DNA from: Candidatus Eisenbergiella stercoravium
GTDB lineage: Bacteria; Bacillota; Clostridia; Lachnospirales; Lachnospiraceae
Assembly (NCBI GenBank): GCA_019113175.1
Contig: DXHY01000083.1
Coordinates: 1-38,390, forward strand
Direction of reading: 5' to 3'
DNA: 38,390 bases
The notes beneath the pieces are model-generated. The model searched no databases. It worked only from the letters and a program-made list of their open reading frames with translations, and was not told the DNA's origin. Made by a program: the position numbers and the translations under genes. Positions 2,079 through 24,334 of this stretch are shown here, in pieces. The first letter of the stretch is position 1. Each line of letters starts with the position of its first letter.

Positions 2079-3398
2079 TTATTTAGCTTTGCTGTGAATG
2101 TATTCCTGCAGATCGGCCGTCAGCTCATTCAGGATATTTTCCTGATAAGCCGCAAGGCCTGTTTTTCTGACCTGCTCTGAGGTTTCCCTGAGGATCGGAT
2201 TTTCCACATGGCACAGTCTGGACATGCGCTTTCCGTCTATCCGCTCCTCAGAAAGTCCATTCCGGTAATCCTCCGGCGACATCCGCCAGATCTCCAGCAT
2301 CTGGCCGAAACGTTTCCACAGCCGGTCTGCGATGTCAATTCCTTCCGGATCCATATCCCCGCTGTAACGGATCAGACATCCAGCCTCATCAAGCAGGGAC
2401 AGCACCTGAAGCGCCGCCGTCCTCGGCTGCCCCGAGGTGCACAGAAGTGTCAGCCCACAGTCCTCCTCTCTTTCCGCAAGGAAGCCTGTAAGAAAGCTGA
2501 AGACCATCTCATTTTCCACCACAAAAACGGTATTCCCTTCCGCTTCCGCTCCGACGATCCCTTTCAGATTTTCCCGCGTGACAACGCAGGCCTCCTTCCT
2601 GCGGCAGAATACCGCATAAGCCGGATGCTCTCCCTCTGCTGTCCGCAGATGAAGTCCATACGCGTGGATGCTGCTGGATATGAGATCCGGCGCAATGCCC
2701 GCCTGAAGCAGCAGCTCCCGCCATTCATGTGTCCCTTTTGGCAGTTCTCTGTCCATGCAGCAGCAGACAGCACTGACCAGAAGCTGTCCTGCCGCAGTTC
2801 CTCTGTCAAAGTAATGGGGACTGCCGGAAACGGCAGCGGCAAAAACCGCCAGAGCCGTTTCCGCCTTTTCCTCTTCATATTCTTCCAGTCTCAGCCGTGC
2901 CAGCGCTTCTCCCACATTTCCGATAAGCTGTGCCGCTTTCTCCCTGTCTCTGCCATATTCCCTAATCAGGAGCTGATAACCGAAGGCCTTTTCCTTTCTC
3001 ATACGCCGGAACCAGACAGAGTCAGCTCCTTCCGGTCCATGTTTCCGTTCCAGCAGTTTTCCGGTCTCCTCCAGAAAATTCTCCCGATCCTGCTCAGCCT
3101 TTTGCTTCTTCTCCTTCCGCACGGTAATCATCTCTCCGAAATAGGCTTCCAGCACGCTCTTCAGATCAACAGGCGCGAATCTGGTTTTCTGAAGGCCTCG
3201 CTCAAATTCCGCGCAGGAGAATCGGATATTTCCTTCTGAAAAGTTTTTCCCGAGAATTCCTCCCAGCAGGCAGCGCTCCGCTTCGGAAGCGTCGGAAAGG
3301 GTGATATAGCCCGCCGCCCTTCCATAGGATTCCCATTTTGCGCGAAGTGCCCGAAGGCATCTGCGGCATTCCCGCCAGGTTCCTTCATACTCCCTCAA
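2079..3398 (-). CDS. jetD: Wadjet nuclease subunit JetD (DUF3323/DUF2399, TIGR02679-like)
   Basis: JetD is the Toprim-containing nuclease of Wadjet anti-plasmid SMC systems, which cuts DNA once the SMC motor has extruded the plasmid. The N-terminal part ('LRAKWESYGRAAGYITLSD', about residues 16-35) matches the usual start of this family. The C-terminal DUF2399 Toprim fold shows FVVENE (Glu295, Glu297), TSGQP (321-325) and the acidic GDMDPEG (Asp348, Asp350), so catalytic residues appear intact. The called start is a TTG with AGGAAG just upstream; there is no in-frame ATG or GTG near it. The preceding in-frame sequence (EAEYEEAQEALREYE) reads like SMC coiled coil, suggesting the native jetD start was lost in a deletion that joined it to jetC. 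Last gene of the operon, 16 nt after the jetC stop. Confidence 0.85.
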   Translation of the reverse strand: MREYEGTWRECRRCLRALRAKWESYGRAAGYITLSDASEAERCLLGGILGKNFSEGNIRFSCAEFERGLQKTRFAPVDLKSVLEAYFGEMITVRKEKKQKAEQDRENFLEETGKLLERKHGPEGADSVWFRRMRKEKAFGYQLLIREYGRDREKAAQLIGNVGEALARLRLEEYEEEKAETALAVFAAAVSGSPHYFDRGTAAGQLLVSAVCCCMDRELPKGTHEWRELLLQAGIAPDLISSSIHAYGLHLRTAEGEHPAYAVFCRRKEACVVTRENLKGIVGAEAEGNTVFVVENEMVFSFLTGFLAEREEDCGLTLLCTSGQPRTAALQVLSLLDEAGCLIRYSGDMDPEGIDIADRLWKRFGQMLEIWRMSPEDYRNGLSEERIDGKRMSRLCHVENPILRETSEQVRKTGLAAYQENILNELTADLQEYIHSKAK

Positions 3399-3414: not shown

Positions 3415-5901
3415 TCATATTCCGCTTCTGTTCTCCCATAGGGCAGCGCTTTGCAGCATCTCCTGCCAGCACCGGTTCTTCCTCTGCTCCGCCTCCTGCG
3501 CCTTCCGCTCCCGCTCCGAGAACTGTCCGTTCAGCCAGTTCACCCGCAGCGCGCATTCCCGCAGCTTCTCCAGCGCGTCGTTGATTTCCGAAAAATCGGG
3601 AACCTCTCTGTACTCCTTCTCCAGCGTGTCCAGACGCCCGGACAGCGCAGACAGCTCTCCGGACAGCACATCCATAAGCGCTTCCAGCTCCGCAATCCGC
3701 TCCGTCAGCTGTCTGATCTTCTGCTCCTTCTTCTTTTTTCGCGCCAGCTGACCCACATATTCCGCTTCGCCCTCCTGCCAGGCCTTTCCCAGCAGGGCTC
3801 CCTGGCGAAACATACCGTTTTCTCCGATGGCGAGACGGCCTTCGGAAAAGCCGTCCCGAACTCCTTCCCGGTATCCTCCCCGCAGCCCTTCCCCGGATGC
3901 CCGGCCGTTTCGGATATGGCGCAGGATGCGGGCCGTTTCTTTTTGCAGTCCATCCTCCAGCTCCGTATTCACCGTCAGACCCGGAAAGGAGACCGCGGTA
4001 TCCCCGGCGTCCCGCTCCCCGGCAGGCTCCTTCCCGTCCACACAGATCACGCTGTCCAGAAACTCCGGACATTCCCCTTCGATCCGGAGAAGGTCCTCCG
4101 GCTGCACCACCAGCGCGTCCAGCAGTCCCATGCTCTTTAACTGCGCTTCCATTACCGCGCAGGCGGCCGGGTCCAGGCCATCCGCGAACTCTACCGCCTT
4201 ATAAAAGGGGACTGCCCGGATTCCCGCCTCCTCCATCGCCTTTCTGGACCGCTCAACCAGCTCTCCCCGCTCCGGCTCCAGCTCCGGCGCGCTCTGGACC
4301 GCAAGCAGCTCCTCCCGCGTCGGAAACGGATTCGTATTCCCTGGCCAGCTCTTCCGCTTCTCTGAGAACGCCCCTTTCCGGTTTCCACTCCAGGCTCTGT
4401 CAGCCTTCTCATACAGCAGGCTGATCCAGTCGTCCTGGCCCTCCTGCAGCCTTTTTTCTGCAAGCTGCCGCTTCTTTTCCTGCTCCGCCTTCTCCTTTTT
4501 CAGCTGCTCCAGCGCAAGAGCAGCCTCCTCATACTGTGCGGACGCTTCCTCGAAATCATGGATTCTCTTTTTCCCCTCAGCGAGATTTTTTTCATACTCT
4601 CCAAGGCGCTTTGTGATTTCCGGCATATCGGACAGCCGTCCTTCTTCAAGCATGCTGACCGCATCCGGATGTCCTTCCCACTGCAGAACTTCCTGCCGCT
4701 CCTGAAGCTGCGCCCTTTCCTCCTGCAGCTCTGCCTGTCTGCAGGAAAGCTCATCCTGAAGCTCCTTTTCCTTCCGCTCAGCGACAAAAATTTTCCCGTT
4801 GTAATCCTCCGCCTTTTTCTCCCACTGGCGCTCCCGCTCTTCGGCCTCCTGTTGCTCCCTTCTCGCCGTCTCCAGCCTGACATCCATATCCTTCAGCTTA
4901 TCGTCCAGCAGGCTGTCCCGTTCCGCGCGGGCCAGCCGTTCCCTCTCCTTGCGCGCATTCAGGCTCTCTTCGTTTTCCCTCTGCCGCTCCCGGATCTCCT
5001 GCGCCGCGGCAAGCTGTTCTTCCAGCCGTGCCTGCGCCTTTTCCACATCCACTTTTCTGGAAAGATAGGCCTGCGCTTTTTTCGCCAGCATGAACTGATT
5101 ATAGCGCGTGTACTCCGTCCGTATGATCCGCACATCCCCGAAGGCTCTTTTCAGCCTGTCCAGGCTTTCCTGAATCTCATCCATCTTTTCCATGGCGTCC
5201 ACCATGGGGCGCAGATCCTCGTCCGTCAGCGTCTGCAGGGAATCGTTCAGAATCTCATATACCTTCGTGGGCTTGAACTCCTTGGAAAGCTTCGGCGCGC
5301 GCACCTTCACCAGAAGTCGGATGAACTGCTCGTACTGCTCCAGCTTTCGAAAACCGAAAATATGCTGATTCACCAGCTTTTTATATTCGCTCGGACTGTC
5401 CGTAACCGGATTTTCCTCCCCGAGCACCTGCCTTAAATCCCGTCTGTCATAGGGGATCTTCACGCTGCCCGTCTGCTTATACAGCCACAGATCCTGTCCG
5501 ATCCTGCGCCCGTCCAGAATGAGAAAGCCCAGGAAATCCATCGGCCTTCCCCGTCTGGCGCGCTGTCCGATGCCGATCGAGCGGTACTGGACGCTTTTTT
5601 CTCCGTCCTCTTCTTCCGTTTTCTGAAACTCCAGGAAAAGATAGCCGGTGGATTCGTCCTTTCCCTCTTCTCCCAGAAAATAGTACTCCATTCTTCGGTC
5701 GCTGGAGCCGAAGGGATCCAGCCGGCTCGGCGTCCGGTCGCCGTCCAGGATAAACGGAATGAAGCTCTGGGTTGTGATCGATTTGCCGGAGCCGTTCTGC
5801 CCGCGCAGGAGAAGCCTGCCATCCTCGAACTGAAAATCTTCCTCATCATAAAGCCAGAAATTAACGAACCCGATCCGGTTCATCTTCCATCGGTTGTTCA
5901 T
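3415..5901 (-). CDS. jetC: Wadjet SMC-like ATPase JetC (TIGR02680-like), C-terminally truncated
   Basis: SMC/SbcC-like motor of the Wadjet system. The N-terminal ATPase half is clear: Walker A GQNGSGKS at residues 34-41, followed by the typical TTQSFIPFILDGD segment. Residues about 230-520 form one coiled-coil arm, about 520-690 a globular middle region, and about 700-825 the beginning of the returning coil. The protein then stops at 828 residues. Family members are, from memory, about 1,300-1,400 residues and end with a C-terminal ATPase half carrying the ABC signature and Walker B; neither is present here. The start ATG overlaps the jetB stop by 4 nt (ATGA), so coupling upstream is normal. 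The last about ten residues lose coiled-coil character while another frame gains it, indicating a frameshift/deletion scar. ATPase function is therefore doubtful. Confidence 0.85.
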   Translation of the reverse strand: MNNRWKMNRIGFVNFWLYDEEDFQFEDGRLLLRGQNGSGKSITTQSFIPFILDGDRTPSRLDPFGSSDRRMEYYFLGEEGKDESTGYLFLEFQKTEEEDGEKSVQYRSIGIGQRARRGRPMDFLGFLILDGRRIGQDLWLYKQTGSVKIPYDRRDLRQVLGEENPVTDSPSEYKKLVNQHIFGFRKLEQYEQFIRLLVKVRAPKLSKEFKPTKVYEILNDSLQTLTDEDLRPMVDAMEKMDEIQESLDRLKRAFGDVRIIRTEYTRYNQFMLAKKAQAYLSRKVDVEKAQARLEEQLAAAQEIRERQRENEESLNARKERERLARAERDSLLDDKLKDMDVRLETARREQQEAEERERQWEKKAEDYNGKIFVAERKEKELQDELSCRQAELQEERAQLQERQEVLQWEGHPDAVSMLEEGRLSDMPEITKRLGEYEKNLAEGKKRIHDFEEASAQYEEAALALEQLKKEKAEQEKKRQLAEKRLQEGQDDWISLLYEKADRAWSGNRKGAFSEKRKSWPGNTNPFPTREELLAVQSAPELEPERGELVERSRKAMEEAGIRAVPFYKAVEFADGLDPAACAVMEAQLKSMGLLDALVVQPEDLLRIEGECPEFLDSVICVDGKEPAGERDAGDTAVSFPGLTVNTELEDGLQKETARILRHIRNGRASGEGLRGGYREGVRDGFSEGRLAIGENGMFRQGALLGKAWQEGEAEYVGQLARKKKKEQKIRQLTERIAELEALMDVLSGELSALSGRLDTLEKEYREVPDFSEINDALEKLRECALRVNWLNGQFSERERKAQEAEQRKNRCWQEMLQSAALWENRSGI

Positions 5902-7031
5902 GCCTCTGTTCCTTTCTGAAAATCATCCGGATAATAGCCCTTCAGCTTTCCGACTGCCGGAAGAAGGATGCACAATTCCCCCTCTTCCCGAAGCAGCATC
6001 CAGTCCTTCATGTACCGCCTCACATTTTCCAGGAGCCTTCCGTTATCCATCTCCCGGTATTCCTTACTCCAGGCCGTCTTCCATCCGTCCCGCAGTTCGA
6101 TCCAGAAGGCCTCAAAGGTGTCGCGCTCCAGGATGACCGTCTCGTTCTCCTGTCTTTCCAGCCTTCCCGCCTCCAGAAGCTCCTGTATATACGCACAGAA
6201 CAGAAGAACCGCTTCAGGAAGCATGGCGTCCCGCGGATGAACCGCTCCGAACGCATCCTCCTCCAGCATCCAGAAAGCCGCGTTTTTATGGATATCCAGC
6301 CTTCCGCCCAGATTTTCTCCCAGATATCTGGTGATCCACTGTCTCTGGTTTTTCAGATAGAGCGCGTCCGCATCGTCATTTTCTTCCCAGTAAAAGGCCG
6401 GACAGGCCACAAGCTGTCTGTAAACGCGATGCACCCGTCCCTGCCCCCGCTCCTGGGAAAGCTCCTCAAAGTCCGCCTTCTCAAAGTCCTGCCAGGATTC
6501 GTATCCGGAAATATCGCGCGGGAAGCTTGTGGCAAAATATTTGGAATATCCCGTATTTTCATACAGGACCTCCCGTCCCGCTTCCTGGCCGAAGGCCTCG
6601 CTGCTGCCTTCATATACCCGCAGCACGTGCAGCTTTTCCAGATACTGAAGCACCCTTACCAGCGATTTTCTCTGGGTAAAGGACGTCCAGTCAATCTGCA
6701 TGAAACCTTTCAGCTGCGTCTCCACGTAATCGATCAGCTCCGACAGCAGAAACTGCTCCTCTTCCTCCCGGTCCTCCAGAAACATGAGGACCACGCACAG
6801 GATGCAGTAATCCCGGATCTCCGTAAATTCCTGAATCCCCATAAAGCCTTCCGCGTGGGCGGGAACCTTTTCCAGCTTAATCAGATTCTCCGTGTGGATC
6901 AGCTTCCATCCCATCTGTTCTCTGACGAATTTCTGAAAATTCGGCACATCCCGTCTGACCCTGTAATATTCTTCCTTATCCGCATCCCTGCAGATCCAGA
7001 ATTCTTCCAGCAATGTTCTCAACTCATTCAT
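5898..7031 (-). CDS. jetB: Wadjet subunit JetB (DUF2398, TIGR02678-like)
   Basis: JetB is the KITE-type winged-helix subunit that bridges the kleisin JetA and the SMC JetC. The 377-residue protein opens with LRTLLEEFWICRDADKEEYYRVRRDVPNFQKF, and continues with 'EIRDYCILCVVLMFLED' and 'DWTSFTQRKSLVRVLQYLEKLHVL', typical of the DUF2398 family, and is of normal length. No enzymatic motif is expected or seen. It starts 2 nt after the jetA stop and its stop overlaps the jetC start, so the three genes are translationally coupled. Neighbouring jetA, jetC and jetD make the assignment firm. Confidence 0.88.
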   Translation of the reverse strand: MNELRTLLEEFWICRDADKEEYYRVRRDVPNFQKFVREQMGWKLIHTENLIKLEKVPAHAEGFMGIQEFTEIRDYCILCVVLMFLEDREEEEQFLLSELIDYVETQLKGFMQIDWTSFTQRKSLVRVLQYLEKLHVLRVYEGSSEAFGQEAGREVLYENTGYSKYFATSFPRDISGYESWQDFEKADFEELSQERGQGRVHRVYRQLVACPAFYWEENDDADALYLKNQRQWITRYLGENLGGRLDIHKNAAFWMLEEDAFGAVHPRDAMLPEAVLLFCAYIQELLEAGRLERQENETVILERDTFEAFWIELRDGWKTAWSKEYREMDNGRLLENVRRYMKDWMLLREEGELCILLPAVGKLKGYYPDDFQKGTEA

Positions 7032-7033: not shown

Positions 7034-8509
7034 TTATTGAAACTCCATGATATAGGCCGGCATGGTAAGGTTTCCATCCTCACACTTTAAAACACAGCTC
7101 CCCTCCTGCCGGATCAGTCTGTATTCCTGCCCGTATTCCGTTCTTCCTTTTCCTTCCGTGTTCATATTCGCAAGACTAATCCACTGCAGAAACATGTTCT
7201 TCGTCGCCTCGGAAACCGTTTCCTCAATCTCCGCAAAGGCAATGCGGTTATCCCTGATATAGCGGAAAACAACTTCCCTCTGCCGCTCGGCAAGCTGCAG
7301 GTACTGCTGTCTCTGCATCAGCTTTTCCAGAGATTTGTCCGCAAAACCATGCCGGTCCTTTTTCTCCCTGTATGCCCTGGTATGCGGCTTCAGCAGAAAT
7401 TCTGCCGGCGCTTCCTCATAGACGCTTTTTCCCACCGCATCCGATTCCCGCGGTTCATTCGTCCGGAAATGCTCCATTTTCTGAATTCCAAACACATGAG
7501 CAGACAATCGGTGCGCTTCCTCCAGATCCTCACATTTCAGAAAAAGCTCCAGAAATTTCCGGTAATCCTCCTTCCTGCTGATTCCCCAGTTCTGCATCTG
7601 CACGATAAGCGCTGCATTCTGGATGATGCTCCGGATCACATCATTTGTGATCTGCAGCACTTTTCTGGCTTCGCACTCATGCTCCGGCGTATCCAGAAAC
7701 CAGTTTTTCAGCGATTCCCATTTTCCGGTCACATTCTCCCGGATGGACGGTTCCGCATTTCCGCGGTATTCTGAAACCGCGTGCGGAATATCCAGCTCGC
7801 TCTGTACCACCCGCTCCAGAATCGTTCCTTCCATCCGCTCCATATGCTTCTCAAGCAGCTGGCTGATTCTTCTGGAATGCCGCTGCAGCTCCTGAATGAA
7901 CTCATTCAGATATTTGATGAACTTATCCTTATGAAGCACAAATTCCACCGACTTCATCAGCCGGTCCGCCTTACCGGAATAAAAATCCCGCAGATAGTCC
8001 TGATAATTCTGATTCAGCCGCTTGAAATCCTCCTGCAGAAGATTCCACCACTCGTTCACCTCTTTCAGCGGAGCCTGCTCCATATCCTCCACTTCTTCCA
8101 GGCTTCTTTCCAGCCGCACGAAAAAATTGGTGGAAAGATTTCCGGATTCCAGAAACAGGTTTTCAAGCCGCACCGTCATTCTCTCAATTTCCACCGCGTA
8201 TTCTGACATGGTATAGCGATACTGCCTGTTCTTGTAATCCGCAATCGTATAGACCCGCCCCGGATCCTGGATCGGCGTCAGATTCTTCCACTTCACCAGC
8301 GCATCCAGGTCCTGTTCCAGCTGGGCCATGCCGTATGACTGGCCGGCAAATTCTTCTTCCCCCTTCACCAGCTCATAGACATCCTCCTTATAGAGCTGAA
8401 AGTGCATTTTCTCGTATTCTCTGTAAAACACGCGCATGATTTTTCTGTAAATGGGAGCATTCGGAACGGAAAGATAGGACGTTTCATTGATGGCATCGAG
8501 TCGCTGCAT
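7034..8509 (-). CDS. jetA: Wadjet subunit JetA (DUF2397, TIGR02677-like)
   Basis: JetA is the kleisin-like subunit that closes the SMC ring of the Wadjet complex. The 491-residue protein begins with the family-typical segment containing 'YLSVPNAPIYRKIMRVFY', has winged-helix-like N-terminal sequence (about 1-100), a long helical middle (about 110-350) and a C-terminal helical/winged region. Length is normal and there is no internal stop or obvious frameshift. It is the first gene of the operon; AAGGA lies about 8 nt before the ATG at 8509. The DUF2397-DUF2398-SMC-DUF2399 set corresponds, from memory, to Wadjet type II. Confidence 0.88.
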   Translation of the reverse strand: MQRLDAINETSYLSVPNAPIYRKIMRVFYREYEKMHFQLYKEDVYELVKGEEEFAGQSYGMAQLEQDLDALVKWKNLTPIQDPGRVYTIADYKNRQYRYTMSEYAVEIERMTVRLENLFLESGNLSTNFFVRLERSLEEVEDMEQAPLKEVNEWWNLLQEDFKRLNQNYQDYLRDFYSGKADRLMKSVEFVLHKDKFIKYLNEFIQELQRHSRRISQLLEKHMERMEGTILERVVQSELDIPHAVSEYRGNAEPSIRENVTGKWESLKNWFLDTPEHECEARKVLQITNDVIRSIIQNAALIVQMQNWGISRKEDYRKFLELFLKCEDLEEAHRLSAHVFGIQKMEHFRTNEPRESDAVGKSVYEEAPAEFLLKPHTRAYREKKDRHGFADKSLEKLMQRQQYLQLAERQREVVFRYIRDNRIAFAEIEETVSEATKNMFLQWISLANMNTEGKGRTEYGQEYRLIRQEGSCVLKCEDGNLTMPAYIMEFQ

Positions 8510-8719: not shown

Positions 8720-8748
8720 TTTACAACTCTTCAGATAAATGCTATGAT
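8720..8748 (+). promoter_or_regulatory. Candidate sigma-A promoter upstream of the first rpn gene
   Basis: TTTACA (8720-8725), a 17-nt spacer and TATGAT (8743-8748): five of six consensus bases in each hexamer at ideal spacing. It would give a leader of about 170 nt before the rpn start at 8925, in addition to the closer promoter. Confidence 0.5.
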
Positions 8749-8880
8749 ATGAAATATCTTCATTTTTACATTCATTTTCATGTCGGCAATTTCTGTAACT
8801 ATACTTTCTGAACAGTTTCCTATTCCCTTTTCTGTCACTTTTCTTATTTCATAAAATTTAATTTCAAAGTCGCGCTTCTG

Positions 8881-8909
8881 CTGACATCCCACTCAAATGA
8901 TGCTATACT
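8881..8909 (+). promoter_or_regulatory. Sigma-A promoter of the first rpn gene (duplicated element)
   Basis: CTGACA (8881-8886), 17-nt spacer, TATACT (8904-8909), followed by AAAGGAG (8911-8917) seven nt before the ATG at 8925. The transcript would have an extremely short leader. The same element precedes the second rpn copy, supporting function. Confidence 0.65.
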
Positions 8910-8924
8910 GAAAGGAGAAAACAT

Positions 8925-9776
8925 ATGGAAAAAACCATCCAAGAACTGAACCTGAGCGATGATTTTCTGTTTGCCAAAGTCATGGCTGACAGCGAAATCT
9001 GCCGCAGGGTACTGGAAAAAATCCTGAAGGTCCCCATCCGGGAGGTGGAGTCCCCCACAACGCAGCGAACGATTGATCTTCTCTTTGAGGGCAAGGGCGT
9101 CCGCCTGGACGTATATGTGAACGACGATGAGGGCACCGTTTATAACATTGAAATGCAGTGCAGCAAAAAGCGCAGCCTACCAAAACGGACGAGGTATTAT
9201 GCCGGCAGCATCGACCTGGATCTGATCACGGCGGGAGAAGACTACATAAACCTGAAAAAGGCCTACGTGATCTTCATCTGCACCTTCGATCCCTTCCGCG
9301 ACGGCAGGCACATTTATACCTTTGAAAACCGGTGTCGGGAAAATCTTTCCCTTTCTCTGGGAGATGAAAGCATAAAAATCTTTCTCAATACCAGAGGGAC
9401 ACTGGACGACGTGGATGAGGAAATGAAGGAATTTCTCGCCTATGTGGAGAATACTACAGACCGCTTTGCCGCGCAGGCGAAAAGCCTGCTGATCCGGCAG
9501 ATTCACCGAAAAGTAACCGAAGTGAAACAGAATCCCAAAATGGAGGTGGAATATATGACGTTGATGCAGAGAGACCGGGAAAATATTGAGCTGGGACGGG
9601 AAGAGGGGAGACAGGAAGGCTTTCAGGAAGGCCGTCAGATTGGAGTCAAAATGGCTCTTGATATCATCCGGCTTCATCTGGACGGAAAAGAAGTACAGGA
9701 AATTGCAGACCTGCTTGGCCTGGAAGTGGATTATGTCCGACAGATTCTGAAGGATTATGAAAATATGCCTGATTGA
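8925..9776 (+). CDS. Rpn-family PD-(D/E)XK nuclease / putative transposase, copy 1
   Basis: A 283-residue member of the Rpn (recombination-promoting nuclease; PD-(D/E)XK transposase-like, TIGR01784) family, whose characterised members cleave DNA and promote RecA-independent recombination. The catalytic core is visible: Asp62 in VRLDVYV and Glu76-x-Gln78 in IEMQ, then RTRYYAGSIDL. The N-terminus (LSDDFLFAKVMADSEICRRVLEKIL) is family-typical. Near residue 220 there is the characteristic GREEGRQEGFQEGRQIG repeat, then a C-terminal helix-turn-helix-like segment ('VQEIADLLGLEVDYVRQIL') that is probably the variable specificity tail. No terminal inverted repeats were seen, so it is not evidently an IS. 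A close paralogue lies at 10534-11349. Confidence 0.88.
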   Translation: MEKTIQELNLSDDFLFAKVMADSEICRRVLEKILKVPIREVESPTTQRTIDLLFEGKGVRLDVYVNDDEGTVYNIEMQCSKKRSLPKRTRYYAGSIDLDLITAGEDYINLKKAYVIFICTFDPFRDGRHIYTFENRCRENLSLSLGDESIKIFLNTRGTLDDVDEEMKEFLAYVENTTDRFAAQAKSLLIRQIHRKVTEVKQNPKMEVEYMTLMQRDRENIELGREEGRQEGFQEGRQIGVKMALDIIRLHLDGKEVQEIADLLGLEVDYVRQILKDYENMPD

Positions 9777-9818
9777 GCGGCCCCTTCATCCGGATTCACA
9801 GTCTCTCTCTGAACGTAT

Positions 9819-10370
9819 TTAATCTTTCGTAGAATAGATGGAACGCAGGTAAGGGATTAATGGACTATAGTCCTCCATCCGGATTGTTCTGTCATAATAC
9901 TTTTCCATATCATGATGAAACATAAGTTCATCCATGATCTCATGAGGATCCTCCACCACATAGTTTCTACCCTGCATTGCGCCGCAGTGTATGCATGTAT
10001 TCGCAGTATAGCGGCTTTTGATGGTATTACTGTACCGCGGTTGAATAGAAGGAATTTCTTTTTCCAGAATCTGATCCACACAGGGAAGTTCTCCCAGGCC
10101 CACCATACCAAAACTGCCCAAATATTCATCCAGCTCTTCCAACTCATATCCCAGATAGTACGAATAGACAGGGGTTTCTTTTCCACATTTCCAACATACC
10201 TTATTCCAGCGGTAAATACGGATTCCCTTCTCCTGAATATAAGCCATTACAAGCTCGTGAAGCTTCAGTGTTGATCTGCATGCCGGATAATTGGAACAGC
10301 CTGCAAATACGCCGAATTTCCCGTCTCTTAGCTTATAGTATCCAGCACATTGCCTGCATCTTATTTTCAT
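9819..10370 (-). CDS. Zinc-ribbon protein with topoisomerase-type C4 finger
   Basis: A small protein with three Cys pairs. The N-terminal MKIRCRQCAGYYKLRDGKFG-type segment, ending CSNYPACRSTL, is a topoisomerase I C-terminal C4 zinc finger. It is followed by CWKCGKET and, near the C-terminus, CIHCGA, which may form a second zinc site. No catalytic domain is seen, so nucleic-acid binding is the likely role. I chose the ATG at 10370 because it follows GGGGA at about 9 nt and begins right at the finger; the ORF extends in frame to an ATG at 10427 with a poor ribosome site. It sits on the opposite strand between two near-identical rpn genes, is convergent with copy 1 and divergent from copy 2, and might be cargo of that duplication. 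Confidence 0.7.
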   Translation of the reverse strand: MKIRCRQCAGYYKLRDGKFGVFAGCSNYPACRSTLKLHELVMAYIQEKGIRIYRWNKVCWKCGKETPVYSYYLGYELEELDEYLGSFGMVGLGELPCVDQILEKEIPSIQPRYSNTIKSRYTANTCIHCGAMQGRNYVVEDPHEIMDELMFHHDMEKYYDRTIRMEDYSPLIPYLRSIYSTKD

Positions 10371-10489
10371 AATCAATATTCCCCATCTTTCTTTTCTTCC
10401 CTTTCTCCATCTGTAATCATCATACAAAATTTTTCTTTATATATCTACCTGAAATTTCCTGATTCCCCCAAATTTGAATCGCGCTTCTA

Positions 10490-10518
10490 CTGACATCCCA
10501 CTCAAGTAATGCTATACT
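10490..10518 (+). promoter_or_regulatory. Sigma-A promoter of the second rpn gene (duplicated element)
   Basis: CTGACA (10490-10495), 17-nt spacer, TATACT (10513-10518), then GAGAGGAG just before the ATG at 10534. It is nearly identical to the promoter of copy 1 and shows that the duplication carried about 55 bp of upstream DNA. Confidence 0.65.
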
Positions 10519-10533
10519 GAGAGGAGAAAACAT

Positions 10534-11349
10534 ATGGAAAAAAACATCCGCGAACTGAACCTGAGCGATGATTTTCTGTTTGCCAAAGTCATGACTGACA
10601 GTGAAATCTGCTGCAGGGTACTGGAAAAAATCCTGAAGGTCCCCATCCGGAAGGTGGAGGCCCCCACAACGCAGCGAACGATTGATCTTCTCTTTGAGGG
10701 CAAGGGCGTCCGCCTGGACGTATATGTGAACGACGATGAGGGCACCGTTTATAACATTGAAATGCAGTGCAGCAGGAAGCGTAATCTCCCAAAGCGGACC
10801 CGTTATTATGCCGGAAGCATCGATCTGGATCTGATCACGGCGGGAGAAGACTACATAAACCTGAAAAAGGCCTATGTGATCTTGATCTGTACCTTTGATC
10901 CCTTCCGCGACGGCAGACACATTTATACCTTTGAAAACCGGTGCCGGGAAAATCTTTCCCTTTCTCTGGGAGATGAAAGCATAAAAATCTTTCTCAATAC
11001 CAGAGGGACGCTGGACGACGTAGACGAGGAAATGAAAGAATTGCTCGCCTATGTGGAGGATACCACAGACCGTTTTGCCGCGCAGGCAAAGAGTCCGCTG
11101 ATCCGGCAGATTCACCAGAAGGTAAACGAAGTAAAGCAGAATCCTAAAATGGAGGTGGAATATATGACGTTAATGCAGAGAGACCGGGAAAATATTAAAC
11201 TGGGGCGGGAAGAAGGCGTCAAAATGGCGCTCGACATCATCCGGCTTCATCTGGATGGGAAAGAAGCGCAGGAAATCGCAAACCTGCTTGGCCTGGAAGC
11301 GGATTATGTGAATCAGATTCTGGAAGACTATGCAAATCTGCCCAGATAA
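10534..11349 (+). CDS. Rpn-family PD-(D/E)XK nuclease / putative transposase, copy 2
   Basis: A 271-residue paralogue of the 8925-9776 product, nearly identical through the nuclease core (Asp62, Glu76-x-Gln78 conserved) but with scattered substitutions. It lacks 12 residues of the Gly-Arg-Glu-rich repeat: copy 1 reads GREEGRQEGFQEGRQIGVKM where this copy reads GREEGVKM. The C-terminal tail also differs (LEADYVNQILEDYANLPR). Both catalytic motifs look intact, so both genes are probably functional or only recently redundant. Similarity starts about 55 bp upstream of the ATG and ends at the stop codon. The gene is followed by a 263-bp gap and the AraC-type regulator. Confidence 0.87.
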   Translation: MEKNIRELNLSDDFLFAKVMTDSEICCRVLEKILKVPIRKVEAPTTQRTIDLLFEGKGVRLDVYVNDDEGTVYNIEMQCSRKRNLPKRTRYYAGSIDLDLITAGEDYINLKKAYVILICTFDPFRDGRHIYTFENRCRENLSLSLGDESIKIFLNTRGTLDDVDEEMKELLAYVEDTTDRFAAQAKSPLIRQIHQKVNEVKQNPKMEVEYMTLMQRDRENIKLGREEGVKMALDIIRLHLDGKEAQEIANLLGLEADYVNQILEDYANLPR

Positions 11350-11540
11350 TTTCACAAAACGGGTCACACACTTTTATTAACTGTTTATTTCTATTTTACA
11401 TCACATCTGTATTCATGATTATCATCATCTATATTCATCAGGCTTCCTAAAATTCTTTTTTATATGCCACTTTCCATAAACCGGACAAATTCCCTTTCAT
11501 AATGACAGGATAAGCATAATGAATCATGTTATTATACAAA

Positions 11541-11565
11541 TATCACCTGTATAAAAAATGTGATA
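11541..11565. promoter_or_regulatory. Inverted repeat upstream of the AraC/GyrI regulator
   Basis: TATCAC (11541-11546) and GTGATA (11560-11565), half-sites 19 bp apart, 48 bp upstream of the regulator start. Position and dyad symmetry suggest an operator, perhaps autoregulatory. A TATTAT-like -10 sequence lies just before it. Low confidence. Confidence 0.35.
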
Positions 11566-11612
11566 AAGAATCAAAAAACAATTGATTGTGACACAACATT
11601 ATGGAGGACAGT

Positions 11613-12515
11613 ATGGAGTGGACTGCCAGCTTAAGAAGAGCGATTGCTTATATGGAAAAACATCTTCTGGAACCAATAGACACGGATGCTGTTGCAAAAG
11701 AAGCACAGCTTCCTTCTGTTTCTCTGCAACAGGGATTTAAAATCATGACCGGATACTCGTTGGGAGAATACATTCGGTTTCGAAGATTATACCTGGCCGC
11801 CCTGGATATTATGGCAGGTCAAAACAGGGTAATTGATCTGGCGCTCAAATATGGTTATGAAACACCGGAAAGCTTCTCAAAGGCATTCCGCCGTTTTCAT
11901 GGAATCTCTCCTTCTCAACTTAGCGGAAACAGGAACAGTATTACCACCTTTCTTCCCCTTAAAATAGAGCTTTCCGTTCATGGAGGAGAAGAAATGGATT
12001 ATACGTTAGAGACTATGGATGCATTTCCAGTCATCGGCTTCGAATGCATCTGTTCCATGGACGATTCCTTTACACGGCTTCCCTGTTTCTGGTCTGAAAT
12101 CAGAGCAAAATACGAAAGATTCATGAATGGCACAGGACAGCCCATGAATGAAATCGAACAGGCGATTTCTGATTGTCACATAGGAGAATTCGGTGTATGT
12201 ATAGACGATGAATCCACAGAAATTTGCCGCTATCTGCTGGGCGGCCGTTATGACGGACGGAATGTTCCAGCTGGTCTGAGTGTATACGAGATTTCCTCGA
12301 AGCAATGGGCACGTTTCCGCTGTGCAGGTGCCATGCCTGGAGCCATACAGGCCGTTCTTCTTCGGATTTTTAGGGAGTGGCTACCGGGCAATCCAAATTA
12401 TGAACTGACTATGGGAGGTACTGTCGAATGGTACTCACAGGGCGATAACAGTCAGCCTGATTATCAGAGCAAAATCTGGATTCCGGTTTCTTCTGTCAAC
12501 AGGAAATCTGTTTAA
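11613..12515 (+). CDS. AraC-family regulator with GyrI-like effector domain
   Basis: A transcription factor of the Rob/SoxS-with-GyrI type. Residues about 1-100 hold two AraC helix-turn-helices ('DTDAVAKEAQLPSVSLQQGF', 'VIDLALKYGYETPESFSKAF', then FHGISPSQL). Residues about 125-300 match the GyrI-like small-molecule-binding domain (YTLETMDAFPVIGFECIC... PAGLSVYEISSKQWARF...). I chose the ATG at 11613 over the one at 11601: GGAGG at 11603-11607 lies inside the earlier codons and is perfectly spaced for the later ATG. It is 20 bp upstream of the ABC exporter genes, so it most likely senses a toxic compound and activates their expression. Confidence 0.9.
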   Translation: MEWTASLRRAIAYMEKHLLEPIDTDAVAKEAQLPSVSLQQGFKIMTGYSLGEYIRFRRLYLAALDIMAGQNRVIDLALKYGYETPESFSKAFRRFHGISPSQLSGNRNSITTFLPLKIELSVHGGEEMDYTLETMDAFPVIGFECICSMDDSFTRLPCFWSEIRAKYERFMNGTGQPMNEIEQAISDCHIGEFGVCIDDESTEICRYLLGGRYDGRNVPAGLSVYEISSKQWARFRCAGAMPGAIQAVLLRIFREWLPGNPNYELTMGGTVEWYSQGDNSQPDYQSKIWIPVSSVNRKSV

Positions 12516-12535
12516 AACACTTTGGGGGGGAGATT

Positions 12536-14344
12536 ATGACCTGTTCTTTCAGACAAATTCTCTTTGTTTTCAAGCTGGGCTATAAGGCGGATAAATACAG
12601 ATCACTTTTGTGTTTTCTTTATCACCTGTGGGTCACCTTTGTAAATCTTGTTTTTCTTACTCTGCTTCCGCGCTGGCTCATCGTTGCCTATGAACAGAGA
12701 ATCCCATGGTTCAGAGTTCTTGCCGTTTTACTGTTTTTATGGATTAGCCAGATTGGATATTCCCTGTATTCCAATTATTATAACCAGATCTTTAAACCAG
12801 TCTCCGATGAGCGTATTTATCATTTAATTCAGAAGGAAATTTTTTTAAATTCTCTTTCCATTCCTTTTTCCAGGCTGGATGAATCGGAATACTATAATGA
12901 TTTCATGAAAGCAGGCAAAGAAGCCAAAGGCCGGATCACTTCTGTCATGGATCAGATTTTTGAATTGATTCTGAATTTCGCTGCTCTTTTTATTCTGCTT
13001 TACGTTATGGCAAGAATCCATATCGGCTTTGTTCTTATAGCTTTACTTGCCTTTTTTCTTCCCTTACTTTGGAAAAACAGGCTTAATCATCTGATTTTTC
13101 ATGGAGATATGGAAGCTCTGAAGCAGGAGCGAAAAGCAGAATATGTTAATCGGGCTTTTTTTCTGAAGCAGTACAGCCGGGAAATCAAAATTTCAAACAT
13201 CAGCAAAGTACTGCTGAAACAGTTTTCCGACGCCATGAGGAATCTCAGAGAGATTCGCAGAAAATATGGTTTTAAAATCACTCTTCTGCAGATGCTTTCT
13301 TTTTTCTTCCATGACATTCTGTGCTATGTTCTTTTTGTTCTGCTTGCCGTTTTTCTTCTGTATCATCAATCTATCCTGTTAGGCGACTTTGTTCTGGCCG
13401 TAACCTCATTATCCGTTCTCACGGACCGAATGAATTCCTGCCTGAACGGATTCTTCCTTCTGCGTAATGCAGGCAATTATCTGGATAACCTGGAAGCTTT
13501 CCTCCCGGCATCCTTTCATAATGTTCCCGGCCAGAATAGAAAGATCACACCTTACTCTCATGGTTGCGGGCATCAGGAAGCGGAGTTTTCCAGCCTGAAA
13601 CTTCGAAGTTTGACTTTTCGTTACAATGGCTGTTCTCAATATGCCCTGAAAAACATATCTCTGACCATTCACAAAGGGCAGCACATTGCCCTGATCGGGG
13701 AAAACGGAGCAGGTAAATCTACTCTGATTAAACTGCTTCTGGGACTTTATGATGCAGCTAGCGGTGAAATTCTGTTGAATAACCGGTTGTTGTCAGACTA
13801 TGACAAAAACTCTTATCAGTCTCTTTTTTCCTGTGTTTTCCAGGATTATGCGGTTTTCGGATGTTCCATTGGAGAAAATATCCTGTGCAGGAAAATAGAA
13901 GAGTCGGATCTGCCCGTTCTTACCGATGCTTTGGAAAAAAGCGGGCTTTCAGAAGATATGAAACGGATGAATTTAACCGTTCATGATATTGTTACAAAGG
14001 AATTCGACGAAAATGGGGTAATATTTTCCGGCGGCCAGCTTCAAAAGCTGGCAATAGCCAGAGCACTTGCTCATGACAGAGAAATACTCATCATGGATGA
14101 ACCTTCCAGCGCCTTAGATCCTCTGGCTGAACAGAATATGTTCCGGCGTCTTAATGCCCTCTCCAAAGGGAAAACGCTGATCTATATCACCCATCGCATT
14201 TCTTCCGCTGTTACGGCAGATATGATTTATTTTCTGGAAAATGGAGAAATCACAGAACACGGAAGCCATCAGGAGCTGATGAGATTAAACGGAAAATATG
14301 CCCGTCTGTATTACATGCAGGCCCGCAGTTATAAGGAGAACTGA
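12536..14344 (+). CDS. ABC exporter half-transporter 1 (fused permease-ATPase)
   Basis: A 602-residue type I ABC exporter half: an N-terminal membrane domain (hydrophobic segments at about residues 35-75, 145-185 and 255-300) fused to an ATPase. Walker A GENGAGKS begins near residue 388, the Q-loop is in VFQDYAVF, the signature FSGGQ is near 497, Walker B ILIMDEP near 520 with the catalytic Glu, D-loop SSALDP and H-loop THR. All catalytic elements are present. GGGGGGGAG precedes the ATG. It is followed 2 nt later by a second half-transporter, so they likely form a heterodimeric drug/peptide exporter controlled by the upstream AraC/GyrI regulator. Substrate unknown. Confidence 0.9.
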   Translation: MTCSFRQILFVFKLGYKADKYRSLLCFLYHLWVTFVNLVFLTLLPRWLIVAYEQRIPWFRVLAVLLFLWISQIGYSLYSNYYNQIFKPVSDERIYHLIQKEIFLNSLSIPFSRLDESEYYNDFMKAGKEAKGRITSVMDQIFELILNFAALFILLYVMARIHIGFVLIALLAFFLPLLWKNRLNHLIFHGDMEALKQERKAEYVNRAFFLKQYSREIKISNISKVLLKQFSDAMRNLREIRRKYGFKITLLQMLSFFFHDILCYVLFVLLAVFLLYHQSILLGDFVLAVTSLSVLTDRMNSCLNGFFLLRNAGNYLDNLEAFLPASFHNVPGQNRKITPYSHGCGHQEAEFSSLKLRSLTFRYNGCSQYALKNISLTIHKGQHIALIGENGAGKSTLIKLLLGLYDAASGEILLNNRLLSDYDKNSYQSLFSCVFQDYAVFGCSIGENILCRKIEESDLPVLTDALEKSGLSEDMKRMNLTVHDIVTKEFDENGVIFSGGQLQKLAIARALAHDREILIMDEPSSALDPLAEQNMFRRLNALSKGKTLIYITHRISSAVTADMIYFLENGEITEHGSHQELMRLNGKYARLYYMQARSYKEN

Positions 14345-14346
14345 CC

Positions 14347-16122
14347 ATGAAATACTTTTCTGCACTGTCCCGCATTCCCGCAATTCTGCATTTTGCGAAT
14401 GCTCCTCTTTATATTTTTCTCCATATCCTCTGCACCTGTCTGAACCATTTCCGTTCAGCTGTACTTTTGGTCATCTTTCTTAACCTTTTTCTGCAGATGG
14501 TCAATATGCAAAATTCTCTGGTGTCAGTTTTTACATTATTGGGAATCTATATATTGCTTCTATCAGGAATCGGTACTTTTTCTGTATGGTTTGAGAATTA
14601 TTATAAACCGACAATCTGGCCACAGGTACAGGAAAAATTTCGTAATGTGCTGTTTCAGCGTTCCATTGCTTCCGATCTTGAGAATTTTGACCAGCCTGAC
14701 TTTTATAATGAATACATCTGGGCTATTACCCAGTCAGATACTGTCATTTCCGGAACGATAACGGCTCTGTCTGAACTCATGAATAATTTGATTACCACAA
14801 TCTGTATTGTTTGTATTTTCTTTCATGTTGATTTCCGAATCGCAATCCCTGTATTCCTCTGTGTAGCAGTTACAGCCATTCTGTTCTCCCGTATTATCAA
14901 CGAAAATTATTGCAGGGAAACAGAAATGGCTCCGCTTTCCAGAAAAACAGAATACTTCAAAAGAATTTTTTATTTTAAGGAATTTGCAAAAGAACTGCGT
15001 CTGACCGGCATCGATAAACTAATCACTCAACAGTTTGATGAGCATGAGGAAAACGTGTGCGGAATGAACCGTATTTGGGGAAGACGTCTGTGTTTTTGGA
15101 ATACTGCAAACGGCCTTGCCATCTCCACCTTTCTGGACATTGGCCTGCGGATTCTGCTCACTTATCAGCTTATGGTTTCACATACCATATCCATTGGAGA
15201 ATATACTGCTTCCACCTTTGCCATCTGGTCTCTGTTTTCCGGCCTGAATGGTTTATCATCAAGCCTGCACAGTCTTTCTGAATACTCCATGAAAGCAGAT
15301 AAAATATTCCGTTTTCTTAAGGAAAGACCTCAGGTATATGTGAATGGGAAAAAAGAGCCGCCCCTCCGGAACCAAAACAGGATTCTCTGTCAAAATCTTT
15401 CTTTTCGATATCCCGGGAATCAGGATTTTACCATTGAAAATCTCTCTTTTGAGCTTCATCAGGGTGAAACACTTGCAATAGTCGGGGAAAATGGTTCTGG
15501 AAAGTCTACTTTGATCAAACTGCTTCTTGGGCTCTATATGCCGCAATCAGGAGAGATTCTCATCAATGACCATTCTCTTATCAATTATAATATTACGGCA
15601 TATAGAAAATTATTTTCTGTGATATTTCAAAATTTTTCCTTCTTTTCTGCAAGCGTTGCACAAAACATTATGCTGGATCTGCAGTGGGACAAAACAGAAC
15701 TGTACGATGCTTTGGAACAGAGTCTGTACAGAAAAGATCCTTACCTGAAAAGGATTCCTCTGGATACCTGCATGACGAAAGAGTTTAATGATGATGGTAT
15801 TATTCTGTCCGGTGGTCAGGCACAAAAATTAGTAATTACCAGAGCCTTCCTGAAGCCTCCCTTTGTACTTATGGATGAACCATCAAGTGAACTTGACGTA
15901 TCCAGTGAACGAGAACTGAATGAACTGATTCTCCAGAATTCCAGACGAAAAGGAATTCTCATTATTGCGCACAGGCTGACGACTACCAGACGGGCAGATC
16001 GGATTCTTGTACTGTCTCATGGAAAAAAGGTGGAAGAAGGAAGCCATGAAGAACTAATGCGGCAAAAAGGGCATTATTATCGTATGTTCATGGCACAGGC
16101 GAAGCAGTATCAGGAAAACTGA
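14347..16122 (+). CDS. ABC exporter half-transporter 2 (fused permease-ATPase)
   Basis: A 591-residue partner of the preceding exporter half, starting 2 nt after its stop with AAGGAG inside the previous gene's end. The N-terminal membrane domain covers roughly residues 20-300. The ATPase has Walker A GENGSGKS near 380, Q-loop IFQNFSFF, signature LSGGQ near 487, Walker B FVLMDEP with the catalytic Glu near 508, D-loop SSELD and H-loop AHR. Both halves therefore have complete ATP sites, unlike many heterodimeric exporters with one degenerate site. The motif TKEF-(N/D) just before the signature is shared by both. Convergent with the gene at 16137. Confidence 0.9.
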   Translation: MKYFSALSRIPAILHFANAPLYIFLHILCTCLNHFRSAVLLVIFLNLFLQMVNMQNSLVSVFTLLGIYILLLSGIGTFSVWFENYYKPTIWPQVQEKFRNVLFQRSIASDLENFDQPDFYNEYIWAITQSDTVISGTITALSELMNNLITTICIVCIFFHVDFRIAIPVFLCVAVTAILFSRIINENYCRETEMAPLSRKTEYFKRIFYFKEFAKELRLTGIDKLITQQFDEHEENVCGMNRIWGRRLCFWNTANGLAISTFLDIGLRILLTYQLMVSHTISIGEYTASTFAIWSLFSGLNGLSSSLHSLSEYSMKADKIFRFLKERPQVYVNGKKEPPLRNQNRILCQNLSFRYPGNQDFTIENLSFELHQGETLAIVGENGSGKSTLIKLLLGLYMPQSGEILINDHSLINYNITAYRKLFSVIFQNFSFFSASVAQNIMLDLQWDKTELYDALEQSLYRKDPYLKRIPLDTCMTKEFNDDGIILSGGQAQKLVITRAFLKPPFVLMDEPSSELDVSSERELNELILQNSRRKGILIIAHRLTTTRRADRILVLSHGKKVEEGSHEELMRQKGHYYRMFMAQAKQYQEN

Positions 16123-16136
16123 AAATTAAAGCACCC

Positions 16137-16631
16137 CTAACCGCTTTCAGGGAATTTTTTCTGATCGATTGCCTGCGATGAGAGCGTCTGACCTTTCCTC
16201 CTTCCGTGGATACTTCCGTCATCGAGATCGCATTCAGCATGATGACCGAAATCCCAGGTAATTCTTCCAAAATCCGTCCCTTTCCTTCGTTTGGCACTGG
16301 CATACAGCTTCTGATATTTCTCCGATTTCGTACACAGCTTCTCCGACAGGGCAAAAACCGGTTCATAGCAGCCATAAGTACTGTAATAATCATAAGTCTC
16401 CATGTCAGTCAGAAGCTGTTTTCTCAGCTTCCAGATGCCGGCAAAACTGCTGTCCTGCTGCTGTAAAAGCGAAGACTGTATGCATCTGTAACGGATATTT
16501 GAGGCCAGTTCCCTCTTTCTGCGCAGCTCTTTTTCCGCTATGAATCTTTCTCTGGAATAACCCTGTCCGCGAAAACGTCTGTCCAGCTCCGCCTTTTCTT
16601 CGACAATCTCTTTTTCAAGCAGAACTGACAT
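16137..16631 (-). CDS. Hypothetical protein, likely 3' part of a frameshifted gene
   Basis: A 164-residue, strongly charged, probably helical protein (MSVLLEKEIVEEKAELDRRF...), not recognised. It lacks a convincing ribosome site at the ATG at 16631. Coding-like sequence continues upstream in another frame (about 16640-16790: ENTWQTAKRLKEILEHSMCD, then EINPEALLGKGIPDNIF). The two frames meet at a run of seven A's on the plus strand (16635-16641), and adding one base there would give DNIFFEMSVLLEKE as one continuous reading frame. It is therefore either a pseudogene, a sequencing error at a homopolymer, or a slippage-controlled gene. It lies directly downstream of the primase-helicase gene on the same strand and is a plausible partner. 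The C-terminal about 40 residues look less protein-like. Confidence 0.5.
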   Translation of the reverse strand: MSVLLEKEIVEEKAELDRRFRGQGYSRERFIAEKELRRKRELASNIRYRCIQSSLLQQQDSSFAGIWKLRKQLLTDMETYDYYSTYGCYEPVFALSEKLCTKSEKYQKLYASAKRRKGTDFGRITWDFGHHAECDLDDGSIHGRRKGQTLSSQAIDQKKFPESG

Positions 16632-16634
16632 TTC

Positions 16635-16641
16635 AAAAAAA
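16635..16641. other. A7 homopolymer at an apparent frameshift
   Basis: Seven A's (T7 in the coding direction) lie exactly where coding potential switches frame between the upstream segment (about 16640-16790) and the 164-residue ORF ending at 16137. One extra base would fuse the frames. Typical site for replication slippage, polymerase slippage or sequencing error. Confidence 0.6.
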
Positions 16642-16803
16642 TATTGTCCGGAATGCCTTTCCCGAGCAACGCTTCAGGGTTGATTTCATCACACATTGAA
16701 TGCTCCAGAATTTCCTTCAGCCTTTTGGCTGTCTGCCATGTGTTTTCGTCCTCTGCATATCCGGAAACAGCGTGTCCGGCTCCTGCACGGCCGGCTTCCG
16801 AAG

Positions 16804-19755: not shown

Positions 19756-20056
19756 TCCGCTTCCTTTCTCAGGGCTTCTCCCAGTCCATCACATAAATCT
19801 GGCAGGGATTCGCTTTATCCCATCCCATAGTCCCATATTCCATAAAATTATTTCCATTCTTCATAGATGCCTATAAAAAAGCTCCTTTTTGTCTCAGTAT
19901 ACCATTTTCTTTTTCTTTCTGCATAAAAATGAGCTGATATCCACATGGAAATTCTCTATCTCCTTTAAAAACGGACACAGAAGTGATAGAATAAAGAATA
20001 TCATCCTGAAGGCTGCCGGTACGGACGGCTGGTCCGGGATTCCCAGGGGAGGGATA
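19756..20056. other. Divergent gap between the primase-helicase and diguanylate cyclase genes
   Basis: About 300 bp between divergent genes. It contains a 31-codon minus-strand ORF (19769-19864) listed separately and the strong ribosome site of the cyclase. An in-frame upstream extension of the cyclase ORF to 19889 runs through it but has poor initiation signals. I saw no consensus promoter good enough to call. Confidence 0.5.
19769..19864 (-). CDS. Small 31-residue ORF upstream of the primase-helicase
   Basis: An ATG-TGA frame encoding 31 residues, starting MKNGNNFMEYGTMGWDKANP and ending YVMDWEKP. It ends 13 nt before the primase-helicase start, and the helicase ribosome site lies immediately after its stop, an arrangement suited to a leader peptide or coupled small protein. 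Its residue mix (Trp, Tyr, Asp) looks protein-like. The only strong Shine-Dalgarno candidate, AAGGAG, is about 17 nt upstream of the ATG, which is too far, so initiation is uncertain. It may instead be the remnant 3' end of a lost gene. Confidence 0.35.
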   Translation of the reverse strand: MKNGNNFMEYGTMGWDKANPCQIYVMDWEKP

Positions 20057-21178
20057 ATGGAAATGCCGATCATTCAATATCTGCCTGCGTTGGAACTGCT
20101 TTTTTTCAACCTGTTTACCATAAATCGGTGCTGTCACAGAAGATACAGCTTTTTCAAAACGTTTCTTACTCTGTTCCTGTTTTCCGCCGTGCTTTTTGGC
20201 TTTTCCTATACCTTTGCAGAGGAACTTTCCTTTCGGGGAGACGGAAGCCTCAGTCTGTGCGGCCTTATTTTTCTGATTCCCTTTCGATTCCTTTATAAGG
20301 AAAAGCTGCCGCTTCTGTTTATCATTGCCTGTACCTGCTGGGTGTACACGCTGGGAATTCTTTCCCTTTCCATCCAGATTGCAGGCATGCTGGAGCCCGG
20401 CAGCTGGATTTATATTCTAACCGTGCAGAATTTCCTTTATCTTTTGACTCTGGTTCCGTTTTACAAACATCTTGTGCCGAAATATATTTTTGTCATCGAA
20501 CATATCGGCATCTTTGAAAAACGCTGGTATAAATATATGATGCTGAGCAACTGCCTCAGCTTTCTGCTCTTGGTGGTATTAAACGGATATTTTCTGAAGA
20601 AAGAGGCCTCCTTTGGGAAAATACTGATCCTGTTCCTTCTTTTATCGACCATCTGTATATCCTATTTGATCCTGCATCAGATCGTTCTTGATGCCATTAA
20701 AATCAATGATCTGAAGCAGGAGGTATCCCACGATCCGTTAACCGGCCTTCGCAACCGTACGCAGCTTCTGACTGATCTGCAGTCCGTTTCGAAAACCGGA
20801 CAGACCTTTTCCGTGCTTTTTATGGATCTGGATCGTTTTAAACTTATCAATGATCAATACGGCCATATGGCAGGCGATCAGTATCTGAAGCATTTTGCCG
20901 GAATCAGTTCGGACATCCTGACGGATTTGGGAAGAGTTTACCGCTTTGGCGGGGATGAATTCGTCGCCGTATGCCCCGGCGTCATACCTCAGCAGATCAT
21001 TGACCGCCTGAAGGAATGCCGGGAATGGGATTCGGGCGCTCCCTGTCCGTTTAATCAGGTCAGCATCGGCATGCTGCTCTGTGAACCGCCTCATCCTGAT
21101 GCGGAAGAAATTCTGCGGCGGGTGGACAGGCTGATGTATCAGAATAAAACAGCCGGTACCTCTTTCGGGAAAGCCTGA
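20057..21178 (+). CDS. Membrane-bound diguanylate cyclase (GGDEF)
   Basis: Synthesises cyclic di-GMP from two GTP at the membrane. With the start at 20057 the protein has 373 residues: about six hydrophobic segments (roughly 5-215) act as a membrane sensor, followed by a GGDEF domain: DPLTGLRNR near 226, FMDLDRFKLINDQYGH, and RFGGDEFVAV with GGDEF at 298-302. The active-site motif is intact. I do not see an RxxD inhibitory site just upstream, so product inhibition may be absent. The ATG at 20057 is preferred over the ORF start at 19889 because GGGGAGGG lies 3-10 nt upstream and the hydrophobic segment starts there. It is monocistronic, 87 bp before a two-component system. Confidence 0.9.
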   Translation: MEMPIIQYLPALELLFFNLFTINRCCHRRYSFFKTFLTLFLFSAVLFGFSYTFAEELSFRGDGSLSLCGLIFLIPFRFLYKEKLPLLFIIACTCWVYTLGILSLSIQIAGMLEPGSWIYILTVQNFLYLLTLVPFYKHLVPKYIFVIEHIGIFEKRWYKYMMLSNCLSFLLLVVLNGYFLKKEASFGKILILFLLLSTICISYLILHQIVLDAIKINDLKQEVSHDPLTGLRNRTQLLTDLQSVSKTGQTFSVLFMDLDRFKLINDQYGHMAGDQYLKHFAGISSDILTDLGRVYRFGGDEFVAVCPGVIPQQIIDRLKECREWDSGAPCPFNQVSIGMLLCEPPHPDAEEILRRVDRLMYQNKTAGTSFGKA

Positions 21179-21265
21179 TTTTTCCGCGCATTCGCGCCTG
21201 AATCTTATGAAATATGGTTTTCCACAGGATATTCTAATGTTCCTAATCCGCGGGAAAGGATTGAT

Positions 21266-22990: not shown

Positions 22991-22991
22991 A

Positions 22992-24077: not shown

Positions 24078-24124
24078 ATCTGTGGAACTGAAAGGGCTGA
24101 AACCGGTTAATATTGAGAAAGCAT

Positions 24125-24175
24125 GGCTTTTGCTGCCTGGTATGGAAATAGCAGTGTCGGCAGAAGCCGTTTTTT
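24125..24175 (+). terminator. Candidate terminator after the two-component operon
   Basis: GGCTT/TGCC (from 24125) can pair with GGCAGAAGCC (ending near 24168), alternatively as a tight CGGC-AGAA-GCCG hairpin (24158-24169), followed by T6 (24170-24175). It lies about 50-100 bp after the regulator stop, separating this operon from the importer genes. Confidence 0.55.
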
Positions 24176-24299: not shown

Positions 24300-24334
24300 G
24301 AGGTCACAATAAACAAACGAAGGGAGAGGTTAAA

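Follow-up and report, generated by a model that had tools for sequence, protein, structure and literature searches.

A probably decayed Wadjet type II operon with four deletions in jetC in Candidatus Eisenbergiella stercoravium

When Wadjet works, the two halves of the SMC-type ATPase JetC, the N-terminal one with Walker A and the C-terminal one with the signature and Walker B, fold back into one head, and JetABC, driven by ATP, acts on small circular DNA and thereby triggers the JetD nuclease, a picture drawn mostly from type I work. According to PMC10586767, type I is the subject of most Wadjet work, cleavage needs ATP as well as a functioning JetC ATPase, and all four Jet subunits are needed in B. 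subtilis. The same source describes a laboratory strain of M. smegmatis that takes up plasmids well and has a null mutation in EptABCD/MksBEFG. For Clostridium cellulovorans, PMC12287153 reports that deletion of jetABCD raised transconjugation by about five orders of magnitude, and also a spontaneous deletion taking in jetABCD. The locus described here resembles the former case in that a Wadjet-type SMC system on the chromosome carries a loss-of-function mutation, and the latter as a natural deletion striking a Wadjet operon in a clostridial species. However, improved plasmid uptake was observed in M. smegmatis and the gene cluster was lost in Clostridium cellulovorans, whereas our locus keeps most of its operon and is known from sequence alone.

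The window, i.e., the whole stretch of DNA analyzed, is a contig of 38,390 bases (C18) from the draft genome G000, an assembly of 4.10 Mb in 89 contigs with a completeness of 95.09%. It contains the adjacent genes jetA-jetB-jetC-jetD on the minus strand (Table 1). PADLOC assigns type II to all four genes, and JetA, JetB, and JetD score above the cut-offs of the type II families. In gene order and in the family matches of its four genes, the locus is thus like Wadjet type II (JetABCD; TIGR02677–TIGR02680, PADLOC JetA2–JetD2), but it is unlike that system in the length of JetC, which compares with 1355–1431 codons in uncut relatives, in the missing signature and Walker B, and in a jetD gene without its original start. 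With high confidence, we read the locus as an anti-plasmid operon of Wadjet type II that has decayed, probably at a fairly recent date. Very probably, the operon is dead and represents ordinary gene decay, not a new kind of machine.

Table 1. Features of the Wadjet type II operon and its lesions in the window, and of the type I operon on another contig (C26) of the same genome (stretch L072).
Feature	Position	Strand	Description
jetA (type II; DUF2397)	7034..8509	-	491 aa, unbroken; TIGR02677 254.2 bits, PF09660 480.9 bits
jetB (type II; DUF2398)	5898..7031	-	377 aa, unbroken; TIGR02678 190 bits, PF09661 358.8 bits
jetC remnant	3415..5901	-	828 aa; Walker A, without signature, without Walker B
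jetD (type II; DUF3323 + DUF2399)	2079..3398	-	439 aa from a TTG; TIGR02679 209.7 bits (cut-off 196), PF11796, PF09664
Lesion area 1	4312..4393	-	1-nt loss between 4392 and 4393; 119-nt loss, junction 4312-4319
Lesion 2	3456..3462	-	one unit of 8-bp tandem repeat lost
Lesion 3	3364..3372	-	1534-bp deletion junction; one copy of 9-bp direct repeat remains
Type I genes on C26	L072 3653-10269		JetA1 477 aa, JetB1 216, JetC1 1105, JetD1 422

The first-pass annotation had described an 828-residue JetC with Walker A at residues 34–41 and with neither signature nor Walker B, and our analysis confirmed this description; the motif names follow general knowledge of such ATPases. The product retains the N-terminal ATPase half, the coiled coil, the middle, which would by inference be the hinge, and the start of the returning coil. 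Against TIGR02680 it scores 381.7 bits, under the curated cut-off of 462.85, and in the genome search the profile is covered only to position 835 of 1356. The PADLOC profile JetC2 (PDLC00550) gives 785.4 bits, with the best stretch at profile positions 1–493 of 1355, and a Pfam scan of JetC returned no match. Because the signature and Walker B are missing, the operon would not be expected to restrict plasmids.

We compared the gene with 47 related loci from one-genome-per-species assemblies. The JetC frame extends beyond residue 828 in 45 of them, and in the other two (L053 and L055) it is cut earlier by a contig end. Uncut frames span 1355–1431 codons from stop to stop, and a short JetC as the normal form, the outcome that would have overturned the reading of truncation, was ruled out by the frame lengths in these relatives, with no regular form of about 830 residues among them. 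The frame of L058 (1593 codons) is open at its start, that of L018 starts at the contig edge, and the frame runs off the contig in L019, L030, L044, L053, and L055. Matches of the 828-residue query end at residues 816–822 in 44 of the 47 loci and elsewhere in L053 (505), L055 (382), and L058 (777); L054 is matched only from residue 529. Downstream of this region, 43 loci have the signature and Walker B strings in a single frame, and in the four without both motifs (L030, L044, L053, and L055) the gene leaves the contig. The exact Walker A string occurs in 44 of the 47.

The closest locus compared is L016 (G001:C83) from Candidatus Eisenbergiella intestinipullorum, with a DNA identity of 94.8% from the jetB end to the 119-nt lesion and 92.2% thence to the large deletion. 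When the window was aligned base by base with L016, L017, and L018, these three agreed with one another against it and revealed deletions of 1, 119, 8, and 1534 nt in jetC, all of them indels known from one draft assembly. These lesions cluster strongly in jetC, as no frame-breaking deletion was found in jetA or jetB. The 1-nt and 119-nt losses jointly preserve the frame, with 40 residues gone and about 27 out-of-frame residues (approximately 504–530) left, and the kept frame might mean that the protein was retained for a time. The 8-nt loss, about 40 nt before the JetC stop and about 86 nt before the 1534-bp deletion, shifts the frame into the stop at 3415–3417, i.e., at residue 828. A link between this stop and the large deletion, as proposed in the first-pass annotation, therefore holds only in part: the C-terminal half was deleted, but the stop itself stems from the 8-nt frameshift. 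The first-pass annotation also missed the three further jetC deletions, the loss of the jetD start, and the fact that the genome has other Jet operons.

The 1534-bp loss took the C-terminal ATPase half of jetC and, from jetD, the start codon with about 20 codons; it also brought jetD into the frame in which jetC was originally read, giving an open frame of 541 codons. Compared with L016, the domains of jetD are otherwise in place, and the in-frame TTG 16 nt past the jetC stop might act as a replacement start. The view that JetA, JetB, and JetD were all intact is thus correct for the uninterrupted jetA and jetB, each with an ORF of equal length at the corresponding place in L016, but not fully for jetD. 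At the breakpoints, L017 carries two exact 9-bp copies 1534 bp apart and L018 matches it in both copies, whereas L016, the nearest relative, has one mismatch in the downstream copy, so that the exact pair exists only in L017 and L018. Among simulated deletions of 100–1700 bp in this gene (400,000 random draws for each locus), end homology of at least 9 bp arose in 0.0245% for L017 and 0.014% for L016. Since 9-bp repeats at the breakpoints are so rare by chance, the large loss fits recombination or slippage between short direct repeats. The deletion of about 1.5 kb suspected at first was therefore borne out in size and placed between such repeats, but it may be less fresh than supposed, given the relaxation hinted at in jetC and jetD.

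The following course of events would best account for the locus. As comparison shows, losses at short direct repeats, probably by slippage or illegitimate recombination, removed 119, 8, and 1534 nt, plus a single nucleotide, from jetC, and jetD was deprived of its own start; the remnant, judging by the missing motifs, would be unable to form the ATPase head. The operon would presumably no longer restrict plasmids, a loss that the cell may be able to afford with a complete type I Wadjet operon on another contig.

The age of the decay was approached through parsimony N/S counts in which L016 served as the sister and L017 as the outgroup (32 codons skipped). On the window branch, the counts are 4/25 for jetA, 3/18 for jetB, 13.5/22.5 for jetC 1–503, 12/17 for jetC 534–818, and 20/13 for jetD; on the L016 branch, they are 8.5/25.5, 14/21, 11/22, 10/13, and 10/16, respectively. 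None of the five segments differs significantly between the two branches (p = 0.36, 0.07, 0.80, 1.0, and 0.12 in the same order), and the totals are equal (p = 1.0). With a window-branch dN/dS of about 0.04 for jetA and 0.05 for jetB, compared with about 0.16 for jetC 1–503, jetA and jetB are still strongly conserved. In comparisons picked after the counts were seen, jetD (20/13) and the jetC pieces (26/40, rounded) are more relaxed within the window branch than jetA and jetB combined (7/43), with p = 1.3e-5 and p = 0.003, respectively; for the sister branch the same tests give p = 0.63 and p = 0.57, and for the outgroup branch p = 0.026 in both cases. This is a hint that jetC and jetD might be relaxed relative to jetA and jetB; if so, the loss may be older than "fresh", and the decay need not be brand new. 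We also counted invariant columns among 46 loci, with L018 left out and loci without a hit or with less than 90% coverage dropped per segment (39–45 used). The window breaks 2 of 128 such columns in JetC 1–503, a segment in which L016, L017, and L020 have no break, and 0 of 29 in JetC 534–818, 0 of 135 in JetA, 0 of 84 in JetB, and 0 of 45 in JetD. Such breaks also occur in the intact relative L020 (3 of 138 columns in JetA, 1 of 30 in JetC 534–818) and in L016 (1 of 46 in JetD).

A C-terminal half supplied elsewhere, which the first-pass annotation had considered, would be a separate SMC half that pairs with JetC and rebuilds the head, and the conservation of Walker A and most of the N-terminal half would suit such an arrangement. 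Searches at the protein, DNA, and family-profile levels, however, found no isolated JetC C-terminal half in this approximately 95% complete genome. The C-terminal part of the L016 JetC retrieved the two deletion flanks and a 31% match over 99 residues on contig C77, and 1651 bases of L016 DNA matched the flanks alone, the deleted 1534 bp being nowhere else in the assembly. The C77 protein was rejected as a free half because it is a complete JetC1-family protein of 1208 residues (PDLC00505, 1508.6 bits) with its own N-terminal half, a P-loop, and an SbcC-type Walker B. Moreover, no split JetC occurs among the 43 relatives in which both ends can be seen, the motifs following in one frame with a single in-frame stop in L023, and the 1-, 119-, and 8-nt losses harm the remaining half as well, making the two-part arrangement extremely improbable. 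Loss of the segments from the draft by an assembly or consensus error, in an organism with a normal jetC, is unlikely, though less remote than a two-part JetC. The draft is fragmented and incomplete, and the four indels, read from the assembly alone, cluster in one gene; yet the absence of the 1534 bp from the rest of the assembly, a 9-bp junction repeat that is shorter than usual assembly k-mers, and a stretch that is otherwise not rich in indels argue against such an error. A 4427-column alignment to G001 over jetA, jetB, and the first part of jetC contains only 4 gap positions, and these include the 1-nt lesion.

The in-frame joining of jetC and jetD by the 1534-bp deletion, the frame preserved across the 1-nt and 119-nt lesions, and the strong conservation of jetA and jetB on the window branch could also be taken as signs of a new role. 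The N-terminal half of JetC, or a JetC-JetD fusion arising by frameshifting over the 8-nt lesion, would then, together with JetA and JetB, either regulate the other Jet complexes of the cell or act as their decoy. The 8-nt lesion, however, parts the two frames again, the arrangement occurs in none of the 47 loci, constraint seems looser on jetC and jetD than on jetA and jetB, and decay accounts for the data more simply, so that we give this reading hardly any weight. Equally far-fetched is its historical version, in which an in-frame jetC-jetD fusion came before the small deletions and a short SMC arm, kept with JetA and JetB, modulates or competes with other Jet complexes.

Decay of the operon, the reading we prefer, is also supported by other broken type II loci. 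Within the genus, the window JetC was matched in 5 of 13 genomes, G000 included, and the genome G012 contains a ruined type II locus (G012:C17, L085 5463-6926) with jetA pieces in several frames followed by approximately the last third of jetD. No match to jetB or jetC was found in this 16-kb stretch, nor any match to the window JetC in the whole G012 genome. In the family sample, at least 31 of 397 genomes, again with G000, match the N-terminal part of JetC, a lower bound because up to four first-look candidates were scored per genome. Of these frames, 24 have 1345–1446 codons and 7 are shorter; three of the shorter ones lie at contig ends (G173, G181, and G158), and that of G220, which starts at base 6 of its contig, is probably cut in the same way. 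With these four set aside as contig-cut, JetC is apparently interrupted in 3 of 27 assessable family genes, namely G000, G018, and G215. In G018 (L023 in G018:C37), an apparent in-frame stop at 5660–5662 lies just before the signature, the rest following in the same frame, and the JetC frame ends at 1242 codons; in G215, an apparent frame change follows approximately residue 280. Family scans recognize all four genes of our locus, and a presence count could take it for a working Wadjet; the 3 interrupted genes among 27 suggest that presence counts overstate active systems. The locus adds a further probable case of a Wadjet system in decay, at a stage early enough to show how it broke, through short-repeat losses in a long coiled-coil gene.

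Besides the window operon, the genome carries a complete Wadjet type I operon on G000:C26 (Table 1), whose JetC1 scores 1814.1 bits over profile positions 1–1098 of 1098. A JetA1-JetB1-JetC1 row lies on the minus strand of G000:C77 (L073 4138-8976), with the JetA1 gene incomplete at the edge of the examined stretch. The gene after this row had no PADLOC match, and a JetD_C family search of the genome gave a match on C26 only and none on C77, so the C77 row resembles a Jet/MksBEF-like complex that lacks a nuclease of its own. Its JetC1 was also rejected as the housekeeping SMC, since it reaches just 26 bits against the SMC family (cut-off 567.35), whereas a protein encoded on C33 exceeds that cut-off with 1112.7 bits and is the housekeeping SMC. 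JetC-like genes in G006 and G012 likewise best match PDLC00505. Only G000 and G004 have JetD_C matches of more than 50 bits, the level of a type I JetD. Of 13 genomes, 10 are matched by the type I JetC query, most at 23–26%, and we therefore dropped a pattern in which a broken type II operon is accompanied by another JetC in the genome.

A search of viral contigs gave no relative, with one stretch matching a pattern, and the matches listed for the literature on Wadjet and its inactivation contained no report of this locus, although one may still exist in print. Around the operon, the window encodes a 983-residue protein (16804-19755, minus strand) in which a primase domain of the TOTE conflict system and a helicase domain were recognized, along with a weak PLD-like match. 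Over 281 bp, this gene region has a 93% identical copy near the Wadjet operon in G001, implying that the neighborhood was rearranged between the window and G001. Near jetA are two similar PD-(D/E)XK (PDDEXK_2) genes on the plus strand (8925-9776 and 10534-11349), both of which match one single stretch adjoining Wadjet in G001. From the jetA side to the next common stretch, the window spans approximately 19 kb (8738-27599) compared with about 0.9 kb in G001, and a family scan identified, among other genes, an ABC transporter gene and a GGDEF gene in this region.
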